32,981 bases of DNA from Fodinibius salsisoli. Its GTDB lineage: Bacteria; Bacteroidota; Rhodothermia; Balneolales; Balneolaceae. The notes below the pieces were generated by a model. That model was not told where the DNA came from. It worked only from the letters and a program-made list of their open reading frames with translations, and did no database searches. The stretch is from positions 1 through 32,981 of the forward strand of contig NZ_JAGGJA010000024.1 of the NCBI RefSeq assembly GCF_026229185.1, read 5' to 3'. The position numbers and the translations under genes were made by a program. This document shows, piece after piece, positions 260 to 18,278 of the stretch. Positions within the stretch are counted from its first letter, which is position 1. Each line of letters starts with the position of its first letter.

Positions 260-892
260 CTATAGAAATGCTTGGGTTTCAATGGAATAGACTTTTTGGC
301 AAAGATTCAGCTCTTGGTTATTATTTGAAGCTAAGATCAGTAGTTTATTATCACCGGAAAACTGTAATGCTATTTCTTTAACAAGTTGTTCACCTGACTT
401 ATCTAAATTAGAGCCCGGTTCATCAAGTAACAGAATATTGGGCTGATGGAATAGAGCAGCAGCTAAACGCAGCCGTTGGCGTTGTCCGGTAGATATTTTA
501 CCAAAAGGCTGATCAACAACTCCTCCAAGCCCAACCTTTTGCAACCATTCTTCAATGTTACTACCGTAATCCTGTAGCCTAACGTTTGCTAAAAAGGAAA
601 GGTTTTCGAGGCAGCTTAATTCATCATAGAGGTTAATGTAGGGAGCAGCATAGCCCAATCGTTGTTGTATTGCTCCGGATGAAAGTACTTCTGATTGTTC
701 TTTCCATGTTATAGTCCCATTCGTGGGAGGTAGCAGTCCCCCGATGCATTGTAGAAGGGTTGATTTGCCCGAGCCATTGGACCCGGCAATCCCAAGGGGG
801 CCTTGAGAGTGGGTGAGGTCCAAATGCTCAAAAACGGTGTTCGGGCCAAAAGACTTTTTTAAATCTGTGAGCTGTAAAGTAATCATAGCCAA
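260..892 (-). CDS. ABC transporter ATP-binding protein, CcmA-like
   Basis: This is a 210-residue single ATPase domain. Visible motifs are Walker A GSNGSGKST (about residues 37-45), an ABC signature in the divergent form STGQRQR (134-140) and Walker B ILLLDEP (153-159) followed by a D-loop SNLD. The size and style match the CcmA-like ATPases of Bacteroidota-type genomes, related to the heme-exporter ATPase. No permease (ccmB-like) gene follows downstream on this strand before the next, convergent, gene, so its partner must be elsewhere. The H-loop position that normally carries histidine reads ASNNNQEL, with Asn instead. It probably powers export of an unidentified substrate; assignment to cytochrome c maturation is not secure. 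Confidence 0.8.
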   Translation of the reverse strand: MAMITLQLTDLKKSFGPNTVFEHLDLTHSQGPLGIAGSNGSGKSTLLQCIGGLLPPTNGTITWKEQSEVLSSGAIQQRLGYAAPYINLYDELSCLENLSFLANVRLQDYGSNIEEWLQKVGLGGVVDQPFGKISTGQRQRLRLAAALFHQPNILLLDEPGSNLDKSGEQLVKEIALQFSGDNKLLILASNNNQELNLCQKVYSIETQAFL

Positions 893-4462: not shown

Positions 4463-5236
4463 TTATTCCATAACCGCTTCAGTAGTCCCGGATTTTCGAC
4501 TTACCCACGTTGCATACTCCGGATGCAGTTGTACCACATCACCGATCAGGATTAATGCCGGATTGGTGAGGTTCTTCTTCTCCACCTCATTTGTGATGCT
4601 TGCAATGGTGCCCAAGGCAATTTTTTCTTCCGGCAGTGATCCCCGTTGAATGACAGCTATGGGCGTGGTGCTCCTGCCGTAGCGCTTAAAAATATTAACA
4701 ATTTTAGGCAAATTCCTCATTCCCATTAAAATGGCAATGGTGGCAGTTGTTTGGGCAGCCAGCTCAATATCCTCCGAAACCCCGCCATTTCTCGTTACTC
4801 CTGTTGTAACCCAAAAGCTTTCATTGATTCCCCGCTTCGTAAGAGGGATGGTCTGTAGCTCACCAATAGAGGTACAACTTGAAATGCCGGGTATGACTTC
4901 TACGGGTATATCATGAGCTCGGGCATGGGTTAGTTCTTCATGCCCACGACCAAAGACAAAGGGATCTCCCCCTTTCAGGCGAACAATATAGTTGCCTTCG
5001 CGCGCTTTTTGTACGATAAGATCGTTGATAGATTGCTGACTATTCTGACAGGACCCTGCCTTTTTACCCACATATATTTTTTCGGCATCAGCCGGAGCAT
5101 AATCGAGTAGGTCTGGGTGGGAAAGAGTATCATATAATACCACTTCAGCTTTCTCTAAGGCTTTAACTCCTTTTACGATAATAAGATCTGGGTCGCCAGG
5201 TCCTGCTCCTAATAAAATTAGATAACAATTTTCCAT
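4463..5236 (-). CDS. cobA: Uroporphyrinogen-III C-methyltransferase (SUMT)
   Basis: This 257-residue tetrapyrrole methylase transfers two methyl groups from SAM to uroporphyrinogen III, giving precorrin-2, the precursor of siroheme. Motifs visible are LLGAGPGDPDL near the N-terminus, VRLKGGDPFVFGRGHEEL in the middle and ATIAILMGMRNLP further on. It is a single-function SUMT, unlike E. coli CysG, so NAD-dependent dehydrogenase and ferrochelatase steps need other genes not present here. It is divergent from nirB, whose product needs siroheme, and shares the 246-base gap with it. This context favours a siroheme role over cobalamin. Confidence 0.93.
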   Translation of the reverse strand: MENCYLILLGAGPGDPDLIIVKGVKALEKAEVVLYDTLSHPDLLDYAPADAEKIYVGKKAGSCQNSQQSINDLIVQKAREGNYIVRLKGGDPFVFGRGHEELTHARAHDIPVEVIPGISSCTSIGELQTIPLTKRGINESFWVTTGVTRNGGVSEDIELAAQTTATIAILMGMRNLPKIVNIFKRYGRSTTPIAVIQRGSLPEEKIALGTIASITNEVEKKNLTNPALILIGDVVQLHPEYATWVSRKSGTTEAVME

Positions 5237-5309
5237 TTGTTAAAACTATTTATTCTTCTTGTAATTTTGGCACACCTATACAATGATTAACATCTTTTAA
5301 AATTTTTTG

Positions 5310-5338
5310 TTGACAAAACTCCACAAGTGTTTTATTCT
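5310..5338 (+). promoter_or_regulatory. Candidate sigma70-type promoter of the nirB operon
   Basis: TTGACA (5310-5315) is followed after 17 bases by TATTCT (5333-5338), a perfect -35 and a 4-of-6 match to the -10 box. Transcription would start near 5345 and leave a leader of about 138 bases before nirB. The leader is AT-rich, and just before the start codon it has a small hairpin AAAAGA-ATCC-TCTTTT (5458-5473). No Fnr, NtcA or sigma54-type site was recognised in the gap. Confidence 0.35.
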
Positions 5339-5482
5339 TAAAGGCGAAAAGTTATTTATGCATAAATTAATTATGATTATTAAAAAATAAAACTTAAATA
5401 ATTCATAAAAAATTCGCTGTTTTAAGAGCTTATTTGTAAAGCGCAGTTAAAATATTGAAAAGAATCCTCTTTTGGTCGGATT

Positions 5483-8011
5483 ATGAATAGTCGTAAACAA
5501 ACACATATCGTCGTCGTTGGAAATGGAATGGTCGGTTATAAGTTTTGTGAAAAACTGATCGATAAAGAAGAAACTCAAAATTTCAAGGTTACTGTTTTTG
5601 GAGAAGAGCCTCGACCAGCCTATGATCGGGTTCAGTTGAGTTCCTACTTTGCGGATGCTGATGAGAAAGATTTGCAGCTGGCTCCACCCGAATGGTATGC
5701 CGAGCAGGGCATTGAACTGTTTACTGGCGAGTTAATTGTCGACCTGGATCGGGAAAATAAAACCATCACTTCTCAAAAAGGCCGTACCGTTTCCTATGAT
5801 AAGCTTGTGCTGGCAACGGGATCGAGTGCTTTTGTTCCGCCTATAGATGGTGTGGAAAAAGATGGCGTCTTTGTATATCGGACGATAGAAGATCTGGAGG
5901 CCATTACAAGCTATGCCTCAGGTGCTCGAAAAGCGGCTGTTATCGGTGGTGGTTTGTTGGGCCTTGAAGCGGCTAAGTCAGCAATGGATCTTGGGCTGGA
6001 AACAAGTGTGATCGAATTTGCAACTCGACTGATGCCGAAACAGCTTGATGATATTGGTGCACAAGCGCTTAAGGCAGCACTCGAAGAGCTGGATCTGGAG
6101 ATATTATTAAATAAAAATACGACGCAGATCGGCGGAAATAGCGTACCCGAATACCTCAACTTTGCAGATGGAGATCGCCTGGATGCTGACATGGTGATTG
6201 TCTCTGCGGGTATTCGTCCCCGGGATGAATTAGCCAAGAAAACTGACTTAGGTGTTGGAGAGCGAGGGGGCATCATTGTTAATGATCGTATGGAGACCAA
6301 CGATCCGGATATTTATGCCATTGGCGAGTCGGCCCTGCACAAGGGGATGATCTATGGATTAGTGGCCCCGGGCTATGAGATGGCTGATGTGCTGGTTGAG
6401 AATCTGACCGGAGGAGATGCCGCATTTACTGAATTTGATATGTCTACCAAGCTTAAGCTGGTTGGCGTCGATGTAGCCAGCTTTGGTGATGCCTTTGGAG
6501 AAACCGAAGAGAACAGCAAAAAGGTCATCATCGACAATAAGGCGAAAGGGGTGTATAAGCGCATTAATGTATCTGAAGATGGCGATCGCCTGTTGGGTGG
6601 TATGCTTGTGGGCGATGCAGATGACTACAATATGTTGCTTCAGATTGCCCAGAATGGTTTTTCACTTCCCCCGGATCCGGTGGATCTCATTATTGGAGAT
6701 CGAGATGAAGAATCCGGGGCCGGACAAAAGGTGTATGACTTCCCGGATGATTCCATTATTTGTTCGTGCGAGAGTGTAACCAAAGGGGATATCTGTTTGG
6801 TTATTGAGGATGAAGGCAAGGAAGATATTGACAGTATTAAAAAATGCACGAAAGCCGGGACGGGCTGCAGTGGTTGTGTGCCGATGCTGGATGACCTGCT
6901 TACTCAGTCGATGGAAGCCCGCGGAAAAGAAGTCCGCAAGGTCATATGCGAGCATTTCGACTATACCCGCCAAGAGCTATTTGATATTATCAAAGTAAGA
7001 GAACTGCATACCTTTGATGAGCTGTTGGATGAGGTAGGCAAGGGCCATGGATGCGAAAAATGTAAGCCTGCAGTGGCCTCATTATTGGCAAGCGCCTTCA
7101 ATGAACATGTACTTGAAGATCGGGACACCATCCAGGATACCAATGATCGCTTTTTGGCTAATATTCAGCGTGGTGGAACTTATTCTGTAATACCGCGTGT
7201 GCCCGGCGGAGAAATTACGCCCGATAAGTTAATTACTATCGGCGAAGTGGCTAAGAAATACGGATTGTATACCAAGGTTACCGGTGGACAGCGTATCAAT
7301 ATGATGGGTGCGCGTGTGGATCAGTTGCCCGATATCTGGGAAGAACTGATTGAGGCAGGTTTCGAAAGCGGGCACGCTTACGGAAAGGCTCTGCGAACCG
7401 TTAAAAGTTGTGTGGGATCCGTATGGTGTCGTTACGGTCTGCACGAATCCGTTTCTTTTGCCATTGAAATTGAGGAACGATATCGCGGGCTGCGAGCCCC
7501 TCATAAACTAAAGGGGGGAGTATCCGGATGTGTGAGAGAATGTGCTGAAGCCCAGGCCAAAGATTTCGGTATTATCGCTACCGAAGAGGGGTGGAATCTG
7601 TATGTATGCGGTAATGGCGGGACCAATCCACAGCACGCCAAATTGCTGGCCACCGATCTCGATGAAAAAACATTAGTAAAGTATTTAGATCGTTTCCTGA
7701 TGTTTTATATCAAAACGGCCGAACACCTAAACCGGACTTCTACGTGGCTGAATAAAATGGAAGGCGGACTCGATTATCTGAAAAAAGTGGTTGTTGAAGA
7801 TTCTCTGGGTATCGGTGAAGAGCTCGAACAAGAGATGCAGCAGCTGATCAACGTCTATGCCTGTGAGTGGAAAGAAGTAGTGAATAATCCCGAACTGAGA
7901 AAACGCTTCCAACACTTTGTCAACTCCGAAGACGTCGATCCAAGCGTTAAGTTTAAGGATTATCGCAAGCAGTCTGTGCCTGCGGCTCAAGGTTGGAAAG
8001 ATGAAGGATAG
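5483..8011 (+). CDS. nirB: Assimilatory nitrite reductase [NAD(P)H], large subunit
   Basis: The 842-residue protein reduces nitrite to ammonium in the cytoplasm using NAD(P)H. Domains in order are an FAD/NAD(P)H reductase (about 1-400, with VVVGNGMVG and AVIGGGLLGLEAA), a BFD-like [2Fe-2S] domain (Cys 427, 429, 462, 465), a second BFD-like segment (Cys 489, 524, 527), the ferredoxin-like half domain (about 560-640) and the siroheme/[4Fe-4S] domain with SCVGSVWC (Cys 643, 649) and CVREC (Cys 683, 687). All four siroheme-cluster cysteines are present, so it should be active. It heads a nine-gene same-strand run, with nirD 96 bases downstream. Length is typical of NirB/NasD. Confidence 0.97.
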   Translation: MNSRKQTHIVVVGNGMVGYKFCEKLIDKEETQNFKVTVFGEEPRPAYDRVQLSSYFADADEKDLQLAPPEWYAEQGIELFTGELIVDLDRENKTITSQKGRTVSYDKLVLATGSSAFVPPIDGVEKDGVFVYRTIEDLEAITSYASGARKAAVIGGGLLGLEAAKSAMDLGLETSVIEFATRLMPKQLDDIGAQALKAALEELDLEILLNKNTTQIGGNSVPEYLNFADGDRLDADMVIVSAGIRPRDELAKKTDLGVGERGGIIVNDRMETNDPDIYAIGESALHKGMIYGLVAPGYEMADVLVENLTGGDAAFTEFDMSTKLKLVGVDVASFGDAFGETEENSKKVIIDNKAKGVYKRINVSEDGDRLLGGMLVGDADDYNMLLQIAQNGFSLPPDPVDLIIGDRDEESGAGQKVYDFPDDSIICSCESVTKGDICLVIEDEGKEDIDSIKKCTKAGTGCSGCVPMLDDLLTQSMEARGKEVRKVICEHFDYTRQELFDIIKVRELHTFDELLDEVGKGHGCEKCKPAVASLLASAFNEHVLEDRDTIQDTNDRFLANIQRGGTYSVIPRVPGGEITPDKLITIGEVAKKYGLYTKVTGGQRINMMGARVDQLPDIWEELIEAGFESGHAYGKALRTVKSCVGSVWCRYGLHESVSFAIEIEERYRGLRAPHKLKGGVSGCVRECAEAQAKDFGIIATEEGWNLYVCGNGGTNPQHAKLLATDLDEKTLVKYLDRFLMFYIKTAEHLNRTSTWLNKMEGGLDYLKKVVVEDSLGIGEELEQEMQQLINVYACEWKEVVNNPELRKRFQHFVNSEDVDPSVKFKDYRKQSVPAAQGWKDEG

Positions 8012-8107: not shown

Positions 8108-8455
8108 ATGGAAGCAGAACAAGAAGTAAAAAACTGGTTTAAAGCTGCTAAAGTAGAAGATTTTCCCAAAAATGGAGGAGCTTGTATCAAATACAAGGAT
8201 AAACAGATTGCTGTATTCAACTTTACGCGGCGCAACGAATGGTTTGCTTGCCAGAATATGTGTCCACATAAAAAAGAGATGGCTCTTGCCAGAGGGATGA
8301 TAGGAGAATCCCAGGGAGAGCCTAAGGTAGCCTGTCCTTTCCATAAAAAAGCCTTTTCGCTTCAAACGGGCGAAAATATTGATGGAGAAGACTATGAGGT
8401 GGTAACCTATCCCGTTAAAATCGAAGGGGGTTATGTGTACGTCGGACTTTCATAA
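8108..8455 (+). CDS. nirD: Nitrite reductase small subunit, Rieske-type
   Basis: This 115-residue partner of NirB has a Rieske-like fold. It retains both Rieske ligand pairs: CPH (Cys52, His54) and CPFH (Cys76, His79). E. coli NirD lacks them; this form is like NasE-type small subunits and probably binds a [2Fe-2S] cluster. It lies directly downstream of nirB in the same orientation. The ATG start at 8108 is preceded by GAAGGAATCCC, an acceptable ribosome-binding region. The gap that follows, to the moaC-moaB gene, carries a palindromic repeat. Confidence 0.93.
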   Translation: MEAEQEVKNWFKAAKVEDFPKNGGACIKYKDKQIAVFNFTRRNEWFACQNMCPHKKEMALARGMIGESQGEPKVACPFHKKAFSLQTGENIDGEDYEVVTYPVKIEGGYVYVGLS

Positions 8456-8605: not shown

Positions 8606-9559
8606 ATGAGAGATATATCTGGTAAATCAACCTCGCTCCGAACAGCAAAAGCAATGGCCCTGGTGCAATGTAGTGAGCAGGCACTGGAAAAAGTTAAAAC
8701 TGATAACCTGCCCAAGGGAAATATGCTTGATGTGGGCCGTGCTTCCGGATTTTTAGGGGCCAAGAATACCCACATGCTAATTCCGCACTGCCATCCGGTT
8801 TCTATAGATGCGCTCGATATCAGTTATGAATTAATCGAGCCCGAACATAGCATTGAGGAGGTCGAAGGATTAAACGTGGATTATGGTATTGCCATCATTG
8901 CAGAAGGTAAATCCATTGATCGTACCGGGATAGAAATGGAGATTCTGACGGCCGTTTCTGTCACGGCGTTAACTATTTATGACCTGCTAAAACCCCTTGG
9001 CGACGAAGTGGAAATAAGTAATACAAAGTTGCTGAACAAAACGGGAGGTAAAAGCAACATGCGGGCCATGGTGGGTAGAGAAAACAAGTCGGCCGTATTG
9101 ATCTGTTCAGATTCGGTTGCGGCAGGAAGAAAAGATGACCGGGCCGGCCCCATTATTCAGCATTTGTTGGAAGAGCAGGGTGGAAGTATTGTGGATTTTA
9201 AAGTGCTACCGGATACACCCGAAGCAGTTCAGGCTCAGCTCAAAGAGTGGGCCGGCCGGAATATCCCGTTCATATTTACCGTGGGAGGAACCGGGCTCGG
9301 AGCTACAGATACTGTTTGTGAAGCAGTACAAGAAGTTATTGAGCGAGAGACGCCAGGGGTAATTGATGCCATGGAGCTACATGGTTTGCAGCGAACCCCC
9401 CTTGCCATGATGTCGCGCCTGACGGCAGGGATATACAAAAAATCCCTCATTGTGACCCTGCCGGGCAGTTCAGATGGACTTCGCCAAAGCCTGGAAGGCA
9501 TTCTTCCGGGGGTATTCTATGCGAAGAAAATGCTAAGAGCTGCACGAGTCAAAAGCTAA
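8606..9559 (+). CDS. moaCB: Bifunctional molybdenum cofactor biosynthesis protein MoaC-MoaB
   Basis: The 317-residue protein fuses two cofactor enzymes. Residues 1-152 are cyclic pyranopterin monophosphate synthase (MoaC), with GFLGAKNTHMLIPHCHP (48-64) and TGIEMEILTAVSVTALTIYD (107-126) holding the conserved His, Glu, Met and Asp. Residues about 155-317 are a MoaB/MogA-type domain that adenylylates molybdopterin, with TVGGTGLGATD and LPGSSDGL. MoaC acts right after MoaA (encoded at 24210-25220), and the MoaB/MogA domain acts just before MoeA (20644-21852). Placement inside the nitrate operon ties cofactor supply to the nitrate reductase. The N-terminus aligns with MoaC from its conserved MxDxSxK segment, so the start looks right. 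Confidence 0.95.
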   Translation: MRDISGKSTSLRTAKAMALVQCSEQALEKVKTDNLPKGNMLDVGRASGFLGAKNTHMLIPHCHPVSIDALDISYELIEPEHSIEEVEGLNVDYGIAIIAEGKSIDRTGIEMEILTAVSVTALTIYDLLKPLGDEVEISNTKLLNKTGGKSNMRAMVGRENKSAVLICSDSVAAGRKDDRAGPIIQHLLEEQGGSIVDFKVLPDTPEAVQAQLKEWAGRNIPFIFTVGGTGLGATDTVCEAVQEVIERETPGVIDAMELHGLQRTPLAMMSRLTAGIYKKSLIVTLPGSSDGLRQSLEGILPGVFYAKKMLRAARVKS

Positions 9560-9601: not shown

Positions 9602-10906
9602 ATGATCGTTAGATACCATTTTGACAAAGCCTTATTATTGTTTCTGGGATGGTTGCTGTTTCCGGCAATATCCGTGTTCGGCCAATTTACGCTGGAAGGG
9701 GAAGTACGCCCCAGAACCGAACTCCGCCACGGATACAAAACACTTCCATCCAGTGATGATGAGGCTGCTTTATTTACGGAGCAGCGATCCAGAATTAACC
9801 TTGGGTATAACAAGGAGGACTACGATATCGGATTGACTGTACAGGATGTCCGGATATGGGGGAATCAAAACCAATTGAATAAGTCGGATGGGTTGTTTTC
9901 GATTCACGAGGCCTGGGGGCAAATACATTTTAGTCCCATAGTCTCCCTAAAAGCTGGACGCCAAGAATTGGTATATGACGACCAGCGTATTTTGGGAAGT
10001 GTGGGGTGGACGGCCCAGGGGCGTAGCCACGATGCATTGTTATTGAAGATTAGCAAAAAGAATTGGGCTTTACACACCGGCTGGGCCTACAATCAGGATA
10101 ATAATCCTCCGGAGCCCGCCAAATTGTTTGGTAGCTATTATGCTGGAGTACAAAATTATAAAACGCTGCAGTACACTTGGTTTAATCATCAGTCAAAGGC
10201 AGCGAACATTTCATTGTTAGCTCTGAATAATGGTGTTCAGTTACCAGACTCATCCACTAATTTTACCCAGACCGTTGGAGTAACCGGTAACTATAGTCTC
10301 GAAAATATAAATCTAAGTGGTTCACTGTACTATCAAACTGGCAGAGACCCGGCCAATATGGAAGTAGAGGCATGGCTGGCATCTTTGAACGCTACCTATA
10401 GTGGGTTTGAAAAACTGAAACTGACTGTTGGGGGAGATTATCTATCCGGTTCAAAAGTGGATGATGAGAAGAATCGGTCATTTAATCCCCTCTACGGCAC
10501 CCATCATAAGTTTTATGGGTTCATGGATTATTTCTATGTGGGCAATGGCCACAGTCAGTCGGTAGGTACTAATACTAATGCGGCTGGGCTTGTTGATTTA
10601 TACCTCAAGGCTTCAATGCAGTTTACTGATGCTTCGTCTTTGTTGCTGCACGCCCACGAATTTTTTGCACCTGTTGAAATCAGGAATCCAATAGATTTGT
10701 CTTCGGAGTTAAATTCCCGCCTTGGCACCGAAATAGATGTGGTTTTCAGCCATGCCATAACGGATGAAGTTTCTTTTAAAGCCGGTTATGCTCAGATGTT
10801 TGGGACCTCTTCGCTGAGCGCCTTAAAGGGAGGGAATCAAGATGAGTGGGCCAGCTGGGCCTGGCTGATGATTTCTTTTAATCCGGTCTTTTTTACCACA
10901 AAGTAA
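9602..10906 (+). CDS. Outer-membrane beta-barrel porin, alginate-export-like family
   Basis: The 434-residue protein begins with a signal peptide (hydrophobic LLLFLGWLLFPAISVFG, likely cut before QFTLEGEV). The mature part has alternating polar/hydrophobic strands throughout and the N-terminal pattern VRPRTELR, typical of the alginate_export barrel family. It sits between the cofactor gene and the nitrate transporter gene (39 bases downstream). The name of the family comes from its founding member; here a role as an outer-membrane channel for nitrate, nitrite or another anion is more likely, by context. The start could be an inner methionine, but none lies closer to the signal peptide. Confidence 0.8.
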   Translation: MIVRYHFDKALLLFLGWLLFPAISVFGQFTLEGEVRPRTELRHGYKTLPSSDDEAALFTEQRSRINLGYNKEDYDIGLTVQDVRIWGNQNQLNKSDGLFSIHEAWGQIHFSPIVSLKAGRQELVYDDQRILGSVGWTAQGRSHDALLLKISKKNWALHTGWAYNQDNNPPEPAKLFGSYYAGVQNYKTLQYTWFNHQSKAANISLLALNNGVQLPDSSTNFTQTVGVTGNYSLENINLSGSLYYQTGRDPANMEVEAWLASLNATYSGFEKLKLTVGGDYLSGSKVDDEKNRSFNPLYGTHHKFYGFMDYFYVGNGHSQSVGTNTNAAGLVDLYLKASMQFTDASSLLLHAHEFFAPVEIRNPIDLSSELNSRLGTEIDVVFSHAITDEVSFKAGYAQMFGTSSLSALKGGNQDEWASWAWLMISFNPVFFTTK

Positions 10907-10945: not shown

Positions 10946-12304
10946 ATGTCAACACAAAAAACGAATAAAGCTACGAAAATAAATCTGTTTAGTTTTGCGG
11001 CGCCGCATATGCGAACGTTTCATCTGAGCTGGATCTCATTTTTCCTCTGCTTTTTTGGATGGTTCGGCATTGCACCATTGATGGCGGTTGTTCGTGAAGA
11101 ACTGAACCTTACGCAATCTCAAATTGGCAATACCATTATTGCTTCAGTAGCTATTACCGTGATTGCACGTATAGTCATCGGACGATTTTGTGATAAGTAC
11201 GGCCCACGGTTAACGTATAGTACCCTTTTAATACTCGGATCGATTCCCGTCATTAGTATCGGTCTCAGTGACAGCTATGAGTCTTTCCTGATTCTCCGGC
11301 TGGTAATTGGGGTTATCGGGGCTTCCTTTGTTATCACCCAGTATCATACCTCCGTTATGTTTGCGGATAATGTGGTGGGAACAGCCAATGCAACGACGGC
11401 AGGATGGGGGAACATGGGTGGCGGGGCGACCCAGGTGATTATGCCGATGATCTTTTCAGGATTCGTTTTCCTGGGGCTTGAGGAATCTTCGGCCTGGAGA
11501 TGGGCTATGGCCGTCCCCGGTGTGGCAATGATTGTGTTGGGAATACTCTACTACAAATATACGACTGACACCCCCGAAGGTAATTTTTCTGATTTAAAGG
11601 CCGATTCAATGGCCGAGCTTGAAGGTGATAACGAGGAAGAGTCTGAGGTATCAATGCTTGAGGTGATGAAGGACTACCGTGTTTGGAGTTTGTTTATCAT
11701 TTATGGTGCCAGTTTTGGTATTGAGCTTACCATCAACAACATTGCCGCGATTTATTATTACGACTACTTTTCGCTGGATTTAAAAACGGCAGGCCTTATT
11801 GCCGGACTCTTCGGCTTGATGAATATTTTTGCCCGTTCAGTCGGTGGCTTCCTGGGAGACAAGTGCGGTATCAAATTTGGCCTGCGGGGGCGTGTGGTAT
11901 TCCTTTTTATCATGCTCTTCCTGGAAGGGATCGCGCTGATGGTATTCTCAAGTATGTCGGTCCTTCCATTAGCCATTGGTACGATGATCCTGTTCAGTCT
12001 GTGTGTACAGATGGCGGAGGGGGCAACCTATTCCGTTGTTCCATTTATCAATAGAAAAGCAATTGGTGCAGTATCCGGTATTGTGGGAGCGGGTGGAAAT
12101 GCCGGTGCTGTTATGGCTGGATTTTTATTCAAATACGAGTCCATACCCTACCCGCAAGCTCTTTTTATCATTGGTATTGTGGTTACCATTGTATCATTTG
12201 TTGCCTTTACCATACGGTTTTCAACCGCTGATGAGAAAGAGGCAGAAGAAGAGCTGGAAGAAGCCCTCGCCGAACCAGAGCTTGAGCCCGTATTAGCTGA
12301 TTAA
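10946..12304 (+). CDS. narK: Nitrate/nitrite transporter, MFS family (NarK/NasA)
   Basis: This 452-residue inner-membrane protein has about 12 hydrophobic segments. The nitrate signatures are both present: GWGNMGGGATQ (153-163) and AIGAVSGIVGAGGNAG (371-386). Arginines that bind nitrate in characterised NarK proteins are seen in TM2 (ARIVIGR, Arg75) and TM8 (FARSVGG, Arg296). The TM6-TM7 loop (about 205-245) is unusually acidic, and so is the C-terminal tail, which has no known domain. It imports nitrate for the adjacent reductase and might also export nitrite. It lies between the porin and nitrate reductase genes. Confidence 0.95.
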   Translation: MSTQKTNKATKINLFSFAAPHMRTFHLSWISFFLCFFGWFGIAPLMAVVREELNLTQSQIGNTIIASVAITVIARIVIGRFCDKYGPRLTYSTLLILGSIPVISIGLSDSYESFLILRLVIGVIGASFVITQYHTSVMFADNVVGTANATTAGWGNMGGGATQVIMPMIFSGFVFLGLEESSAWRWAMAVPGVAMIVLGILYYKYTTDTPEGNFSDLKADSMAELEGDNEEESEVSMLEVMKDYRVWSLFIIYGASFGIELTINNIAAIYYYDYFSLDLKTAGLIAGLFGLMNIFARSVGGFLGDKCGIKFGLRGRVVFLFIMLFLEGIALMVFSSMSVLPLAIGTMILFSLCVQMAEGATYSVVPFINRKAIGAVSGIVGAGGNAGAVMAGFLFKYESIPYPQALFIIGIVVTIVSFVAFTIRFSTADEKEAEEELEEALAEPELEPVLAD

Positions 12305-12506: not shown

Positions 12507-15500
12507 ATGCAAAACGCACGGACCCAAAAATTTAAATCTACTTGTTCCTACTGTGGAGTAGGTTGCGGAGTCATCGTTGAAAAAAATGCCAAGGGGCAAA
12601 TTAAGGTGACCGGGGATGAGTCGCATCCCTCCAACAAAGGTATGCTCTGTTCTAAAGGAATGAATCTGCATTATACCGTTGCGGATCAGTCAGACCGGTT
12701 GCTCTATCCGGAGATGCGGTGGGCACGCAACCAGCCCCGCCGACGCGTGGATTGGGATACGGCTCTAGAACGGGCATCCGCTGTATTTGGGACATTTATC
12801 GACAAACACGGTCCTGATTCGGTCGGCTTTTATGTCTCTGGGCAGTGCCTTACTGAGGAGTATTACACCGTCAATAAACTTGCCAAAGGGTTTGTTGGGA
12901 CCAATAATATTGATACCAATTCTCGGTTATGCATGAGCTCCGCAGTAGCGGGTTATAAGAAAACACTGGGCGAAGATTCGGTACCGATCAGTTATGAAGA
13001 TATCGAGTTGGCCAACTGTTTCTTCATCGCGGGTGCCAATCCCGCCTGGTGTCATCCCATTATATTTCGTCGTATCGAAGCTCATAAAGAAAAGCATCCC
13101 GATGTAAAGGTGATTGTTGCAGATCCTCGTAAAACTCAATCATGCTCAATTGCTGATTTGCACCTGCAGCTAAACCCGGGGACCGATACGACCTTATTTC
13201 AGGCTATCGCCCGTTGCCTGATTGAAGATGGCCGTATTGATGAATCATTTGTCGAGGATCATACGGATGGGTTCGACGAGCTGAAGATGCAGGTTATGGC
13301 GCAACCGTTGCGAGAAGCAGCTAAAATTTGTGGCCTAAAAGTGCAGGAAATTAAGCAAGCAGCCCGTTGGATTGGTGATGCCAACGGCTATATTTCAATG
13401 TGGGCAATGGGCCTTAACCAAAGTGTGGATGGCACAGAGAAAAATTTGGCGCTCATTAACCTTTCTCTCATTACCGGGCAGATTGGCAAGCCCGGTGCCG
13501 GGCCTTTTTCACTGACGGGGCAGCCGAATGCTATGGGCGGTCGGGAAGTGGGAGGAATGGCCAGCCTGCTTTCGGCTCATCGGGATTTAAGCAATCCCGC
13601 ACATCGCCGGGAAGTCGCCGACCGTTGGGGGGTATCTTCGGTCCCTGCTGAGCCGGGTTATACCGCTACCGAAATGTTTGATGCCCTTCGAAGTGGGGCT
13701 ATGAAAGCAATTTGGATTATTTGTACCAATCCGGTCGTCAGTATGCCGCATTCCGCTATCGTTGAAGAAGCCCTGGAGGAAGCACGGTTTGTAGTAGTAC
13801 AGGATATCTCTCAAAATTCAGAGACAACCGATTATGCCGATCTCTTATTGCCGGCAGCGGGCTACCTGGAGAAGGAGGGGACGATGACCAACTCCGAACG
13901 GCGCATCAGTTATCTGAATAAAGTCGTAGATCCACCGGGCGAAGCACTGCCCGATGCCGAAATATTGTGTCGTTTTGCGCGAAAAATGGGTTATAGCGGA
14001 TTTGATTTTGAAGATGCCGCCGCCATTTTTTCTGAGCATTGTAAGCTAACCGAGGGTACAAATATTGATATCAGCGGATTAAGCTATGAGTATCTGAAAC
14101 AAAACGGCACAGTTCAGTGGCCATTCCTAAATGAATCTGAAGAAGGAACACGGAGGTTATTTACCGACCATCAATTTTATACACCCAATGGGCGTGCTCA
14201 AATTCATACCCGCGGGGAGAAAAGACCAGAAAGGCCAGGCGAAGATCATCCATTTGTGTTAACAACCGGACGTATTCGTGATCAATGGCATACGATGACC
14301 CGGACGGGTAAAGTCAGTCGTCTCAACCAGCATATTGAGCAACCCTATGTCGAGATTCATCCCAAAGATGCCAAAGAATATGGTATTAGAGATGGAGAGG
14401 TTGTGCAGGTATCTAACGATCGTGGAGAGGTGCGTTTGAACGCTTCTTTTTCTGATGGTATCAAACGAGGAATGTTGTTTATCCCGATGCACTGGGGAAA
14501 GGTATTGCAGAAAGATTATCCGCGGGCCAATAATTTAACGAGTGATCGTATCGATCCGGTGTCGAAAGAGCCCGACTTCAAATATTCGTCGGTAGCCATA
14601 ACTAAATTCAAAAAGGAGGAGGAGAAAATTCTTGTTGTGGGGGCCGGGGCTGCTGCGTTCCAGTTTATAAACAGCTATCGGCAGCATAATATGGAGGATG
14701 AAATCCAGGTCTTCTCCAAAGAGTATGAGTGGTTTTACAACCGTGTGCTGTTGCCGGATTATATAAGCGGCGAGCTTGATTGGAAGAAACTTAAGAAGAT
14801 GCAGTCAGGTAAATTGGTTGAGCTGGATATCCTGATGCATGAAGGTATTAGTGTGGACCAAGTACAGCCAGATGAGCAGTATGTCACGGATTCTAATGGC
14901 GAACAGCATAGGTATGATAAGTTGGTTCTCGCTACTGGAAGCCGGGCCAATTTTCCACGTGGTATTCCACAGCTACCGGGGGTGTTTACGATCCGTAACC
15001 GAACCGATGCGGATGAGCTTATGGAGTACACAAACCGTGAGGGGCATGTGATTATCGTAGGGGGAGGCTTACTTGGCCTCGAGATGGCAGCCTCGCTCCG
15101 ACAGGTCGATGTTGAGGTTACGCTGGTGCATCGCAATCCCCGGTTAATGGAGCGGCAGCTCGATCAAATGGCCAGTGAGCTGCTCTATGAGCATATACAT
15201 GATTGTGGTATTCGCGTGATCTTCAATGATGAAATTGAGCACCTCTCAGAGCAGGAAGAGGACATCCGGGCAGGTTTAAAAAGCGGCAAGTTTTTGACGG
15301 CTAAAGCAGTGGTCTATGCCATCGGCACGCGCCCCAATATTGGTTTGGCAAAAGAGGCTGGGTTGGATTGTAAACGCGGAGTTATCGTCAACGACCACCT
15401 GCAAGCCAGTGATCCAAATATCTATGCTATTGGTGAGATCGCAGAACATAATGGATCAATGAATGGCATTACAGCTGCTGCCGAGCAACAGGCAGATATC

Positions 15501-16013
15501 GTGGCCTCATATATAGCTGGGGATTTGTCCAGCCATTATACGGGATCGATATCAATGAATATTCTCAAATTTCCGGATCTCGAACTTTGTTCATTGGGCA
15601 TCACGGAAGTGCCGGATGATGACGCAAGCTATGAAGAAATTGTGCTGGTGGATAAGGGGCAGCGATTTTATAAAAAATGTATTGTCCATAACGATCGACT
15701 GGTCGGTGCCATTTTAATGGGAGATAAAACAGAATTTAATGACTACCGTCGGCTGATAGAGCAACAGATGGAGCTATCTGATAAGCGCAAAGAGCTCTTG
15801 CGTTCGGGCCAGAGTTTGCCGCCCATGAAAGGCGAACTGGTCTGCTCTTGCAATAATGTTGGCGATGGTAATATCCGGGAAGTAATCCGCGAAGGGTGTA
15901 GTAATTTCAAGGAGCTCTGCCAACTGACGGGAGCAGGAACGGGCTGCGGAAGCTGTAAGCCCGAAGTGAAAGCAATTATGGAAGAAATGGCTGTTGCAGC
16001 TGGTAATGGGTAA
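12507..16013 (+). CDS. Assimilatory nitrate reductase fused to NAD(P)H/FAD reductase and BFD domain
   Basis: The 1168-residue protein should reduce nitrate to nitrite with electrons taken directly from NAD(P)H. The N-terminal part (about 1-690) is a molybdopterin oxidoreductase of the NasA/NasC/NapA type: [4Fe-4S] ligands Cys13, 16, 20 and 48, and a likely Mo ligand Cys142 in NSRLCMSSAV. Next is a NirB-like FAD/NAD(P)H module (about 707-1100; VVGAGAAA at 710-717, VGGGLLGLE at 851-859, YAIGE). The C-terminus is a BFD-like [2Fe-2S] domain (Cys1113, 1115, 1147, 1150). In Bacillus the reductase subunit (NasB) is a separate protein. No signal peptide is seen, so it is cytoplasmic. The open frame is continuous, with no sign of frameshift. 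Confidence 0.95.
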   Translation: MQNARTQKFKSTCSYCGVGCGVIVEKNAKGQIKVTGDESHPSNKGMLCSKGMNLHYTVADQSDRLLYPEMRWARNQPRRRVDWDTALERASAVFGTFIDKHGPDSVGFYVSGQCLTEEYYTVNKLAKGFVGTNNIDTNSRLCMSSAVAGYKKTLGEDSVPISYEDIELANCFFIAGANPAWCHPIIFRRIEAHKEKHPDVKVIVADPRKTQSCSIADLHLQLNPGTDTTLFQAIARCLIEDGRIDESFVEDHTDGFDELKMQVMAQPLREAAKICGLKVQEIKQAARWIGDANGYISMWAMGLNQSVDGTEKNLALINLSLITGQIGKPGAGPFSLTGQPNAMGGREVGGMASLLSAHRDLSNPAHRREVADRWGVSSVPAEPGYTATEMFDALRSGAMKAIWIICTNPVVSMPHSAIVEEALEEARFVVVQDISQNSETTDYADLLLPAAGYLEKEGTMTNSERRISYLNKVVDPPGEALPDAEILCRFARKMGYSGFDFEDAAAIFSEHCKLTEGTNIDISGLSYEYLKQNGTVQWPFLNESEEGTRRLFTDHQFYTPNGRAQIHTRGEKRPERPGEDHPFVLTTGRIRDQWHTMTRTGKVSRLNQHIEQPYVEIHPKDAKEYGIRDGEVVQVSNDRGEVRLNASFSDGIKRGMLFIPMHWGKVLQKDYPRANNLTSDRIDPVSKEPDFKYSSVAITKFKKEEEKILVVGAGAAAFQFINSYRQHNMEDEIQVFSKEYEWFYNRVLLPDYISGELDWKKLKKMQSGKLVELDILMHEGISVDQVQPDEQYVTDSNGEQHRYDKLVLATGSRANFPRGIPQLPGVFTIRNRTDADELMEYTNREGHVIIVGGGLLGLEMAASLRQVDVEVTLVHRNPRLMERQLDQMASELLYEHIHDCGIRVIFNDEIEHLSEQEEDIRAGLKSGKFLTAKAVVYAIGTRPNIGLAKEAGLDCKRGVIVNDHLQASDPNIYAIGEIAEHNGSMNGITAAAEQQADIVASYIAGDLSSHYTGSISMNILKFPDLELCSLGITEVPDDDASYEEIVLVDKGQRFYKKCIVHNDRLVGAILMGDKTEFNDYRRLIEQQMELSDKRKELLRSGQSLPPMKGELVCSCNNVGDGNIREVIREGCSNFKELCQLTGAGTGCGSCKPEVKAIMEEMAVAAGNG

Positions 16014-16020
16014 AAGCGTA

Positions 16021-16031
16021 AGGAGACAATG
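16021..16031 (+). promoter_or_regulatory. Strong Shine-Dalgarno site deciding the start at 16029
   Basis: AGGAG (16021-16025; AAGGAG with the preceding A) lies three bases before the ATG at 16029, within 16 bases of the nitrate reductase stop codon. Few genes in this window have so clear a site; it supports translational coupling of the rubredoxin-tailed protein to the reductase. Confidence 0.6.
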
Positions 16032-17483
16032 AAGAAAAAAGACTTAATACGTGCATTTATCCCGGGAGGGGTGTTAACGCCACGAGATTTACGGAAGATC
16101 ATTGACATTGCCAGAGCTTTGGGGAATAAGGTTGTGCATTTTGGCTCACGGCAGGATATTATGTTTCCGGGCGATGATGTGGATCAGAAGAAGCTGGATA
16201 AGGCGTTTGGGTCTATACGGACCAACTATGAATGGAGTGGTCAAAAATATCAAAATATAGTAACCTCCTATGTCGCTGTTGATATTATGCCCAGCAGACC
16301 CTGGGTGACGACCGGTACCTATTATAATGTGCTTGAGTTTTTTGATTATCGTCCCCGGCTAAAAGTAAATATCACCGATCCCGAACAAAGTTTGGTTCCA
16401 TTGTTTAACGGACAGCTTAACTTTGTGGCCTCCGAGCATGAAGACTACTGGTACCTTTTTATAAAATTTGATACCTCGGATGAGCTACAGCGGTGGCCGG
16501 TACTTGTGTATAGCCAGGATGTGGGTAAGGTTGCTGCCGCTCTTGACTCCTTTTATTTTAGAAACGGACAGGAGGTGAAAATGTCGATAGATGCCTTATT
16601 CCAGAAGATAAATATGGCATTAGACACCAATAATCGAACGATTGACAATAATTTGGATTCCCATACTGAGCCATTTCCCTATTATGAGGGGTTCAATAAA
16701 ATGGGGAATAATAAATATTGGCTGGGTTTATATTGGCGTAACAACCGATATACCATTTCCTTCCTCGAGAAGATTTGTGATTTGTGTGATCAAACCAACT
16801 GTGGGCGAATTATTATCACCCCATGGAAGTCATTTATCGTTAAAGGTATTTCAGAAGAGGATCGACCCAAATGGGAGATCCTGTGCGGGAATAATGGCAT
16901 CAATTTGCGACATTCTTCGCTTGAACTCAATTGGCATTTGCCGGTACTGGATGAGAAAGCACTGAAGCTAAAAAACTACCTGGTGGATGTCTTTGATCAG
17001 CACGATATTAGTACCTATGGGCTGACTTTTTCTATTAAAGAACTGCCTGCCAACCTGTTTACTTCCATTGCTATTCTCTCGCAGCCCAGCCTACGCCTGT
17101 TTGGTAAGTATAGCCTTATCAAACGATATAATATCTTCTACAGCAAAAATTTCGATCCCAATGAAGAAGAGTATATTCCTTTTGCGATGTATGTAACCAA
17201 AAGGGAGTTGCCCAGGGTACTTATGAAACTTAGCCAGATATTTTATGCCGAAATGAGTAAGGAGTCTGAAGATCGAGTCTGGCAGGATGGGGAAACGGAG
17301 AAGGAGACACATCGTGTGTATCAGTGTCCCCACTGCCTGACCGTTTACGATGAACGGTATGGTGATCAGCAGATGGGCATAGCCAGTGGAACTTCATTTA
17401 CGGCACTTCCGGATTCTTATGAATGTCCCATGTGCGAGGCCCCCAAAGCTGAGTTTGAAGCCAAAGAGATGTTATTAAATTAG
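16029..17483 (+). CDS. Sulfite/nitrite-reductase-fold protein lacking siroheme cysteines, with C-terminal rubredoxin domain
   Basis: The 484-residue protein resembles the full NirA/SiR architecture: a first ferredoxin-like half domain (about 5-60; IPGGVLTPRDLRKIIDIA, GSRQDIMF), a siroheme-type domain (about 75-200), a second half domain (about 228-275; YWLGLYWRNNRY) and another siroheme-type domain (about 280-410). The CX5C and CX3C motifs that hold siroheme and [4Fe-4S] are absent. The only cysteines before the tail are C250, C253, C258 and C286. Residues about 429-479 form a rubredoxin domain (CPHC at 433-436, CPMC at 466-469). It follows the nitrate reductase by 15 bases. A role as electron carrier or maturation partner of nitrate or nitrite reductase is inference; nitrite reduction by itself seems unlikely. 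Confidence 0.85.
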   Translation: MKKKDLIRAFIPGGVLTPRDLRKIIDIARALGNKVVHFGSRQDIMFPGDDVDQKKLDKAFGSIRTNYEWSGQKYQNIVTSYVAVDIMPSRPWVTTGTYYNVLEFFDYRPRLKVNITDPEQSLVPLFNGQLNFVASEHEDYWYLFIKFDTSDELQRWPVLVYSQDVGKVAAALDSFYFRNGQEVKMSIDALFQKINMALDTNNRTIDNNLDSHTEPFPYYEGFNKMGNNKYWLGLYWRNNRYTISFLEKICDLCDQTNCGRIIITPWKSFIVKGISEEDRPKWEILCGNNGINLRHSSLELNWHLPVLDEKALKLKNYLVDVFDQHDISTYGLTFSIKELPANLFTSIAILSQPSLRLFGKYSLIKRYNIFYSKNFDPNEEEYIPFAMYVTKRELPRVLMKLSQIFYAEMSKESEDRVWQDGETEKETHRVYQCPHCLTVYDERYGDQQMGIASGTSFTALPDSYECPMCEAPKAEFEAKEMLLN

Positions 17484-17837: not shown

Positions 17838-18278
17838 ATGACCAGTGATAATATAACCAAACGATGTATGATTAAACTGACAGACCAACCAATTGAGGTA
17901 CAAGAAGCTATTAATCAGGCTTCATCGGATAGTGCTGGAGCTATAGCTACTTTTATAGGAACGGTAAGGAATTTGACTGATGGCAAACGGGTGGAAAAGC
18001 TGGACTTTGAATCCTATGAAAAAATGGCGTTAACGGAACTTCAAAACATCCTTGACCAAGCAAAAGAACAGTGGCCTATTCAAAAAGCAGCCGTTGTACA
18101 CCGCACGGGAGAGCTCGCTATTTCAGATATTGCCGTGTGCATTGCCGTCTCCTCGCCACATCGCGCCGAAGCATTTGAAGCCTGCAGGTTCATCATAGAT
18201 ACCCTCAAGAAAACAGTGCCTATCTGGAAAAAGGAATTCTTTGAAGATGATGAAGTATGGATCTCCGCCTATCCGTAA
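17838..18278 (+). CDS. moaE: Molybdopterin synthase catalytic subunit MoaE
   Basis: The protein is 146 residues as drawn, or 136 if the ATG at 17868 (MIKLTDQPI...) is used. The later start lines up better with known MoaE N-termini. Motifs are ATFIGTVRN, FESYEKMA, VVHRTGEL, VSSPHRAEAFEACRFIID and the active-site lysine stretch LKKTVPIWKKEFF. It forms the heterotetramer with MoaD that makes molybdopterin. It is the last gene of the plus-strand nitrate run; a paired palindromic repeat separates it from the convergent hemD-like gene. Confidence 0.95.
   Translation: MTSDNITKRCMIKLTDQPIEVQEAINQASSDSAGAIATFIGTVRNLTDGKRVEKLDFESYEKMALTELQNILDQAKEQWPIQKAAVVHRTGELAISDIAVCIAVSSPHRAEAFEACRFIIDTLKKTVPIWKKEFFEDDEVWISAYP

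Follow-up and report, generated by a model that had tools for sequence, protein, structure and literature searches.

A sulfite reductase-fold protein without siroheme-cluster cysteines, bearing a rubredoxin tail and linked to an assimilatory nitrate reductase fusion in Bacteroidota-type bacteria

What would a protein with the fold of a siroheme-dependent reductase do beside a nitrate reductase, when the cysteines that should hold its redox centre are missing and a rubredoxin is attached to its end? This question is raised by a locus of Fodinibius salsisoli, lying in a stretch of 32,981 nucleotides (contig NZ_JAGGJA010000024.1 of RefSeq assembly GCF_026229185.1) that was analyzed as a whole and is termed the window below. 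The gene concerned, which we name RBX, occupies positions 16029-17483 of the forward strand, starts with ATG and encodes 484 amino acids (aa), exactly the limits given in a preliminary description of this DNA. As also described there, it begins 15 bases past the stop of a nitrate reductase gene, and the intergenic stretch (16014-16028, +) contains a Shine-Dalgarno-like AAGGAG. The product of this upstream gene (12507-16013, +; 1168 aa), named NASF here, is identified by Pfam and NCBIfam matches as a fusion of a nitrate reductase binding molybdenum-bis-pyranopterin guanine dinucleotide (Mo-bisPGD), a rubredoxin-reductase-type FAD/NAD (flavin and nicotinamide adenine dinucleotide) module and a BFD [2Fe-2S] domain. 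We classify RBX as a rubredoxin-tailed pseudo-hemoprotein of the sulfite reductase (SiR) superfamily whose dedicated role is in nitrate assimilation. At the two annotated loci, from Hymenobacter and Spirosoma, RefSeq labels it as "rubredoxin" only, and no description of it was found in full-text literature searches, whose coverage leaves out most subscription journals; a literature search for a precedent in cyanobacterial NarM likewise returned nothing.

A Pfam scan of RBX recovered NIR_SIR_ferr in two stretches (E 1e-17 and 64 bits for the whole protein, cut-off 24) and Rubredoxin (PF00301) once, at residues 431-476 (E 1e-16, 60.8 bits, cut-off 23), with no other family above cut-off; the FAD/NAD and BFD domains that would mark a NirB are absent from the chain. 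A genome search returned the same two NIR_SIR_ferr half-domains at 16044-16184 and 16704-16874 (both +), in agreement with the doubled NirA/SiR half-domain that had been recognized earlier. The rubredoxin domain (17319-17456, +) is the only one found in this genome, and contains the previously noted C-terminal CPHC and CPMC pairs as CPHC-29-CPMC. No NCBIfam model reached its cut-off on the window RBX; the CobG precorrin-3B synthase model (TIGR02435), which matches 12 of 31 RBX members at E 0.01, gave it 20.5 bits against a cut-off of 234.8.

An AlphaFold2 model of RBX built with 31 family members had a predicted local distance difference test (pLDDT) score of 84.2 and a predicted template modeling (pTM) score of 0.78. 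Its top matches in a Foldseek search were Mycobacterium tuberculosis NirA (E 1.5e-19) and the Escherichia coli sulfite reductase hemoprotein, SiRHP (E 9.5e-18). In alignments with VIA-align 2 the model superposed on SiRHP with a Z-score of 29.3 over 385 residues (root mean square deviation 3.5, about 16% identity), on spinach nitrite reductase with a Z-score of 26.7 and on M. tuberculosis NirA with a Z-score of 25.7 over 405 residues, and the rubredoxin tail gave a Z-score of 9.8. These structural matches predict that residues 4-421 form a whole two-fold SiR body rather than two isolated half-domains. The SiR/NirA fold put forward in the preliminary description is thus borne out by the model, with no sign of an unrelated fold. 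Sequence comparisons gave far less: a phmmer search of the PDB with the window RBX and a search with the 31-member profile matched rubredoxins and rubredoxin-bearing chains, with no SiR/NirA chain among the best 60 of 76 and the best 60 of 67 matches, while hhalign gave a weak match to one NirA with the single sequence (prob 4.5) and E 0.0008 (prob 25) against a profile of five NirA sequences. The fold assignment rests on the structural match and not on these sequence and profile comparisons.

In NirA and SiR the cysteines of a CX5C and a CX3C motif hold the [4Fe-4S]-siroheme centre. In an alignment that combined RBX, E. coli CysI and five intact NirA proteins, SiRHP C434, C440, C479 and C483 fell opposite a gap, L304, L332 and I336, so that no cluster cysteine was recovered; both motifs are absent from the SiR-like part, as first noted in the preliminary description. 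The stretch corresponding to the CX3C loop is residues 332-336 (LTFSI; 17022-17036, +), where L and I replace the cysteines. All conservation counts given here refer to a set of 89 sequences, namely the window RBX and 88 others from 93 loci (80 genome contigs, 3 plasmids and 10 whole-genome regions, five of these ten without RBX), in which at least one genome, a Gracilimonas, is represented twice (L017 and L129). A CX3C in the SiR-like part is found in none of the 89. A CX5C occurs anywhere in that part in 15 of them, never together with a CX3C; the same number have a cysteine in alignment column 256 beside C250, the two counts being given without a one-to-one match of the sequences. Furthermore, PF01077 (NIR_SIR) matched none of 31 RBX members at E 0.001 and did match the intact NirA controls of loci L125 and L126, and a CysI-like protein of the F. 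salsisoli genome itself keeps both motifs. With the cluster cysteines missing, NirA-type siroheme catalysis was discarded as a reading of RBX.

The only other cysteines conserved outside the rubredoxin are C250 (87/89) and C253 (88/89), which form a CxxC (16776-16787, +) in a predicted helix spanning residues 243-256. It had been suggested that C250, C253, C258 and C286 might together bind a metal. Of these, C258 and C286, present in just 2 and 4 of the 89 sequences, were rejected as ligands; further cysteines are scattered in alignment columns 25 (30 sequences), 262 (23) and 256 (15).

The retention of active-site residues is uneven. SiRHP R83, R153, K215 and K217, letters that we verified on the E. 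coli sequence, are what we take to be the substrate residues. The first half-domain holds R8 (16050-16052), the equivalent of R83, which is arginine in 85 of 89 sequences, and the pair R41-Q42, of which R41 aligns with SiRHP R117 and is arginine in all 89. K112, the equivalent of K217, is lysine in 63 and arginine in 22 (either in 85/89). The position of R153 is occupied by Q or E in 81 sequences, and that of K215 is variable. Seven residues are invariant throughout the set: R41, Q42, N76, N114, N131, K267 and E299.

The most conserved part of the protein lies where the first cluster loop used to be. Residues 291-305 (INLRHSSLELNWHLP; 16899-16943, +), at the place of the SiR/NirA CX5C loop, show 85% mean identity over the other 88 sequences, percent identities being measured against the window protein, and this is the highest value of all 15-residue windows; within it sits the motif RHSSLELNWHLP. 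It leads by a modest margin over the independent windows that follow, namely 229-243 (80%), 322-336 (79%) and 261-275 (78%), and the window 322-336 ends within the stretch aligned to the CX3C loop. The same segment is poorly modeled: block 291-300 has the lowest pLDDT (65) of all ten-residue blocks in residues 1-410, followed by 351-360 (66), and residues 295-301 score below 50 in a model of RBX joined to the FAD-BFD half of NASF. Conservation in a segment whose shape its own fold apparently does not determine would be expected of a ligand or partner site. The preliminary description had called RBX a repurposed, catalytically silent scaffold; this is well supported as regards siroheme chemistry, but "silent" perhaps overstates the case, given that no stretch of the protein is better conserved than the one at the former first cluster loop.

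These features bear on an alternative in which the SiR cleft has been turned into a new active site (R294-H295-E299-N301-W302-H303, perhaps with C250/C253), making RBX an enzyme or sensor for nitrite, nitric oxide (NO) or some other nitrogen species, with the rubredoxin feeding it. A ligand-binding loop would be expected to combine top conservation with poor modeling, as 291-305 does, and R8, R41 and K112 are retained. However, the substrate quartet has lost R153 and K215, Q replaces H303 in 5 of 89 sequences and S replaces one of C250/C253 in 3, the lead of the 291-305 window is small, and strong conservation of the motif is equally compatible with a protein-binding site. As a parallel, a study on the Bradyrhizobium nas operon describes an NO-detoxification pair encoded there, the flavoprotein of which is proposed to supply NasC as well (PMC4724949). 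On balance we consider such an enzyme or sensor doubtful. The more specific proposal that RBX is a new redox enzyme or nitrite/NO handler, with its siroheme site rebuilt as the conserved R-H-S-x-L-E-L-N-W-H and fed by the only rubredoxin of the cell, making it an unrecognized third component of nitrate assimilation, appears quite unlikely.

A scan of species genomes confirmed at least 559 RBX stretches, of which the best 80, all Bacteroidota-type by their titles, were inspected together with 3 plasmids. NASF lies directly upstream of RBX in all 83 of these loci. A rule allowing gaps below 500 bases was passed by 79, the other four comprising two that failed on start choice and two in which NASF is cut by the contig end. 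Among the 79 gaps, the lengths of which depend on mechanically chosen starts, there are 18 overlaps of 4 bases and 16 of 1 base (34 in total), and the median is 8. One exception to the tight spacing is a 269-aa open reading frame (ORF) between NASF and RBX in locus L128 of genome G231. The homologues are therefore not scattered, and the link to nitrate genes conjectured in the preliminary description holds. NASF and RBX are also co-inherited: over 86 pairs their distances correlate at 0.924, a value reached in none of 2000 permutations, and their trees agree.

The same association was evident in samples of whole genomes. Among 58 relatives RBX and NASF occur in the same 5 genomes. In 394 genomes sampled evenly from the phylum, 28 contain a full-length RBX, 32 a NASF match of more than 1000 residues and 27 the C-terminal half of NirB; RBX, near full-length NASF and NirB co-occur in the same 27 genomes, and in every one of these trio genomes RBX and NASF share contig and strand and lie no more than 1 kb apart. 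A further 97 genomes had weaker matches to the RBX profile, and the places among the matches listed fall in the rubredoxin region (about residues 361-483). When 72,556 plasmids were searched with tblastn, RBX was found in 4 records, all Bacteroidota, and a nitrate reductase match in 324, of which 5 cover at least 80% of NASF; these are the four RBX-bearing records and one from Arthrobacter (30% identity). None of four pattern matches in viral contigs encoded a relative. A table in a study of Aquirufa lists Rubredoxin (COG1773) in three strains with an assimilatory nitrate reductase and not in one without it (PMC10821818), a pattern that would be consistent with the distribution of RBX, should that rubredoxin be RBX. 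Taken together, it is well supported that RBX is a dedicated component of nitrate assimilation.

Five genomes have NASF and no RBX (G259, G103, G065, G196 and G220, represented by loci L122-L126). All are of the window's class, and none has a NirB match. In all five loci an intact-cysteine NirA, a flavodoxin and an FAD/NAD reductase lie beside NASF, the last two being identified by Pfam in L125, the reductase of which has relatives in the other four loci. The genes of about 430 aa next to NASF in these genomes were considered as possible rubredoxin-less versions of RBX and rejected, the one in L125 being this FAD/NAD reductase and the other four loci holding its relatives. Both cysteine motifs were found in 4 of the 46 listed genes of about 600 aa near NASF, all four from RBX-less loci. 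Such genes were not NirA where six full sequences were available, of which five are sensor-kinase-like and one outer-membrane-receptor-like. As a separate observation, the genes of about 600 aa upstream of NASF in L026, L029, L030 and L031 read like sensor histidine kinases, and each is followed by a gene of about 220 aa.

One possibility is that RBX holds or channels nitrite, its leftover SiR anion site taking nitrite from NASF and handing it to NirB. The trio's presence in the same 27 genomes, the absence of RBX from the five in which NirA replaces NirB, and the partial retention of anion-binding residues would all fit such a bridge. Half of the substrate quartet is nevertheless lost, the tie to NirB is confounded by phylogeny, and a stretch of a Methylocystis plasmid has consecutive nirB, nirD, nitrate reductase and transporter genes, while RBX is absent from its annotated genes. 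We consider this reading improbable.

Another possibility is that RBX is an assembly chaperone for apo-NASF (or NirB) that assists insertion of Mo-bisPGD, Fe-S or siroheme, its rubredoxin sensing iron or redox state. NarJ/TorD (PF02613) is found in none of the 27 trio genomes as against 2 of the 5 NASF genomes without RBX, the start/stop overlaps between NASF and RBX suggest matched synthesis, and a shrunken four-cysteine rubredoxin, as seen in some members (see below), would fit a structural metal site. There is also a precedent in Paracoccus, where maturation of the assimilatory NasC by NarJ is reported (PMC6618116). Against this, PF02613 is also absent from 3 of the 5 RBX-less NASF genomes, and hence NASF seems to need neither RBX nor PF02613; moreover, PF02613 has no match on RBX (Pfam scan, E 0.1), and the siroheme-requiring NirA of the five RBX-less genomes does without RBX. 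We therefore regard a chaperone role as unlikely.

The rubredoxin tail is itself strongly conserved, with all four cysteines present in 88 of 89 sequences and the CxxC-29-CxxC spacing in 84. In 25 of the 27 trio genomes, that of F. salsisoli included, the single PF00301 match is the RBX tail, and as far as this search shows these bacteria thus keep a rubredoxin for RBX alone. PF00301 was not detected in the trio genomes G231 and G420, in G170, or in the five RBX-less NASF genomes. In G231 and G420 the rubredoxin of RBX is shrunken, the two CxxC pairs being kept and most of the loop between them lost (L128:8469-9845 and L143:5993-7441). In G170 the RBX (L127:267-1553) is at a contig edge and has no rubredoxin, and the genome has no NASF or NirB match, apart from weak FAD-module matches with the whole NirB as query; this copy is perhaps a relic, or the remainder may be missing from the assembly. 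These three genomes, along with the faster evolution of RBX relative to NASF (median patristic distance 2.2 versus 1.1), could be taken as signs that RBX is a paralogue in decay, carried along by the operon. Yet seven residues are invariant in the 89 sequences, the rubredoxin cysteines persist in 88, and none of the 28 full-length matches has an in-frame stop. Decay is accordingly very improbable, and conservation of this kind appears largely to have refuted it already.

We tentatively favor the possibility that RBX serves the NASF-NirBD pathway as a redox adaptor or docking partner. In its fold, the FAD half of NASF resembles rubredoxin and ferredoxin reductases, with the rubredoxin reductase 2v3a among its matches, and its Pfam domains include Rubredoxin_C. 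Since it belongs to reductases of this kind, the rubredoxin of RBX would have a natural electron donor encoded next door, and the presence of the same kind of module in NirB also leads us to prefer this reading. Under this proposal, RBX would descend from a complete NirA/SiR hemoprotein through loss of the [4Fe-4S]-siroheme centre, and would serve as a non-siroheme partner of the NADH-dependent assimilatory NASF in a nitrate-to-ammonium pathway of NASF and NirBD in Bacteroidota-type bacteria. Its old substrate/siroheme cleft may have become a docking or ligand site with the RHSSLELNWHLP motif, and its rubredoxin may pass electrons one at a time to and from the rubredoxin-reductase-type FAD module of NASF, by which it could couple or balance electron flow between the NASF and NirBD reductases. 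Physical binding, electron transfer and a tie that includes NirBD and is not confined to NASF are what we infer from these features.

Several observations weigh against the adaptor role. When the FAD-BFD half of NASF was folded joined to RBX, with only 8 paired rows and the molybdenum domain omitted, pTM was 0.50 and the two halves were well folded with no confident interface between them. NASF is already equipped with FAD and [2Fe-2S] domains, and forms with and without RBX barely differ (17 of 413 near-invariant sites, domains unchanged). Five of the 32 genomes with near full-length NASF have no RBX, and because the NASF proteins of these five form one clade (support 1.0), the tie of RBX to NirB rests on approximately one evolutionary event. 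Finally, the shrunken or lost rubredoxin of G231, G420 and G170 implies that the electron-carrying core is dispensable in places, and its shrunken form counts against a strict electron-carrier role in G231 and G420.

The remaining genes around RBX in the window fit a nitrate-assimilation locus. Upstream of NASF, all on the forward strand, lie NirB, the large subunit of NADH nitrite reductase (5483-8011; 1119 bits), NirD (8108-8455) and a MoaC/MoaB molybdenum cofactor protein (8606-9559), both recognized by family matches, an alginate-export-type outer-membrane protein or porin (9602-10906), which has a relative in 38 of the 83 fetched loci, and a NarK-family nitrate/nitrite transporter scoring above cut-off (10946-12304). 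A CobA-like uroporphyrinogen-III C-methyltransferase for siroheme (4463-5236, -) is 51% identical to the ORF at the annotated cobA place of Spirosoma, and the next gene downstream of RBX is a Pfam-identified MoaE (17838-18278, +). Two irregularities were seen in genes of other loci: on a Hymenobacter volaticus plasmid nirB is divided between two ORFs (L013:4009-5253 and 5253-6512) and may be frameshifted or split, and the NASF frame of genome G081 (C24:529652-533161) contains one in-frame TAA.

The usual parts list of nitrate assimilation comprises a transporter, a nitrate reductase, a nitrite reductase and their cofactors. To judge by its at least 559 stretches, RBX would extend this list by one more conserved member across a large group of bacteria. 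Selection seems to have maintained it as a siroheme reductase fold after the redox centre was lost, and it gives the rubredoxin of these genomes, confined to RBX in 25 of 27 trio genomes, a definite context.

Compared with known systems, RBX shares with NirA and SiRHP (CysI) the complete two-fold SiR fold, the GG entry motif and the equivalents of R83 and R117, and differs from them in lacking the cluster cysteines, a PF01077 match and R153, and in having another loop motif and a rubredoxin tail. That tail resembles free-standing rubredoxins in its CxxC-29-CxxC spacing and fold, but is fused to an SiR-like domain, and is shrunken in L128 and L143 and absent from L127. A rubredoxin tail on a larger domain also recalls the flavorubredoxin NorV, the anaerobic NO reductase, whose model PRK05452 matches 29 of 31 RBX members and whose reductase, NorW, is similar to the FAD-containing half of NASF; in contrast to NorV, the core of RBX is SiR-like and not flavodiiron, and the PRK05452 match of the window protein covers residues 419-479 only, with 28.3 bits against a cut-off of 711. 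By analogy with NirBD, FAD/NAD and BFD domains, an SiR fold and a small iron protein might be seen as spread over NASF and RBX as they are over NirB and NirD, although RBX, unlike NirB, has no FAD or BFD domain and no siroheme ligands, and contains a pair of SiR half-domains compared with a single one in NirB. A further counterpart is Flp of Bradyrhizobium, the NasC partner: like it, RBX is a candidate dedicated redox partner encoded beside an assimilatory nitrate reductase, with the difference that Flp is itself the flavoprotein donor (PMC4724949), a part that in the present system would fall to the FAD half of NASF.

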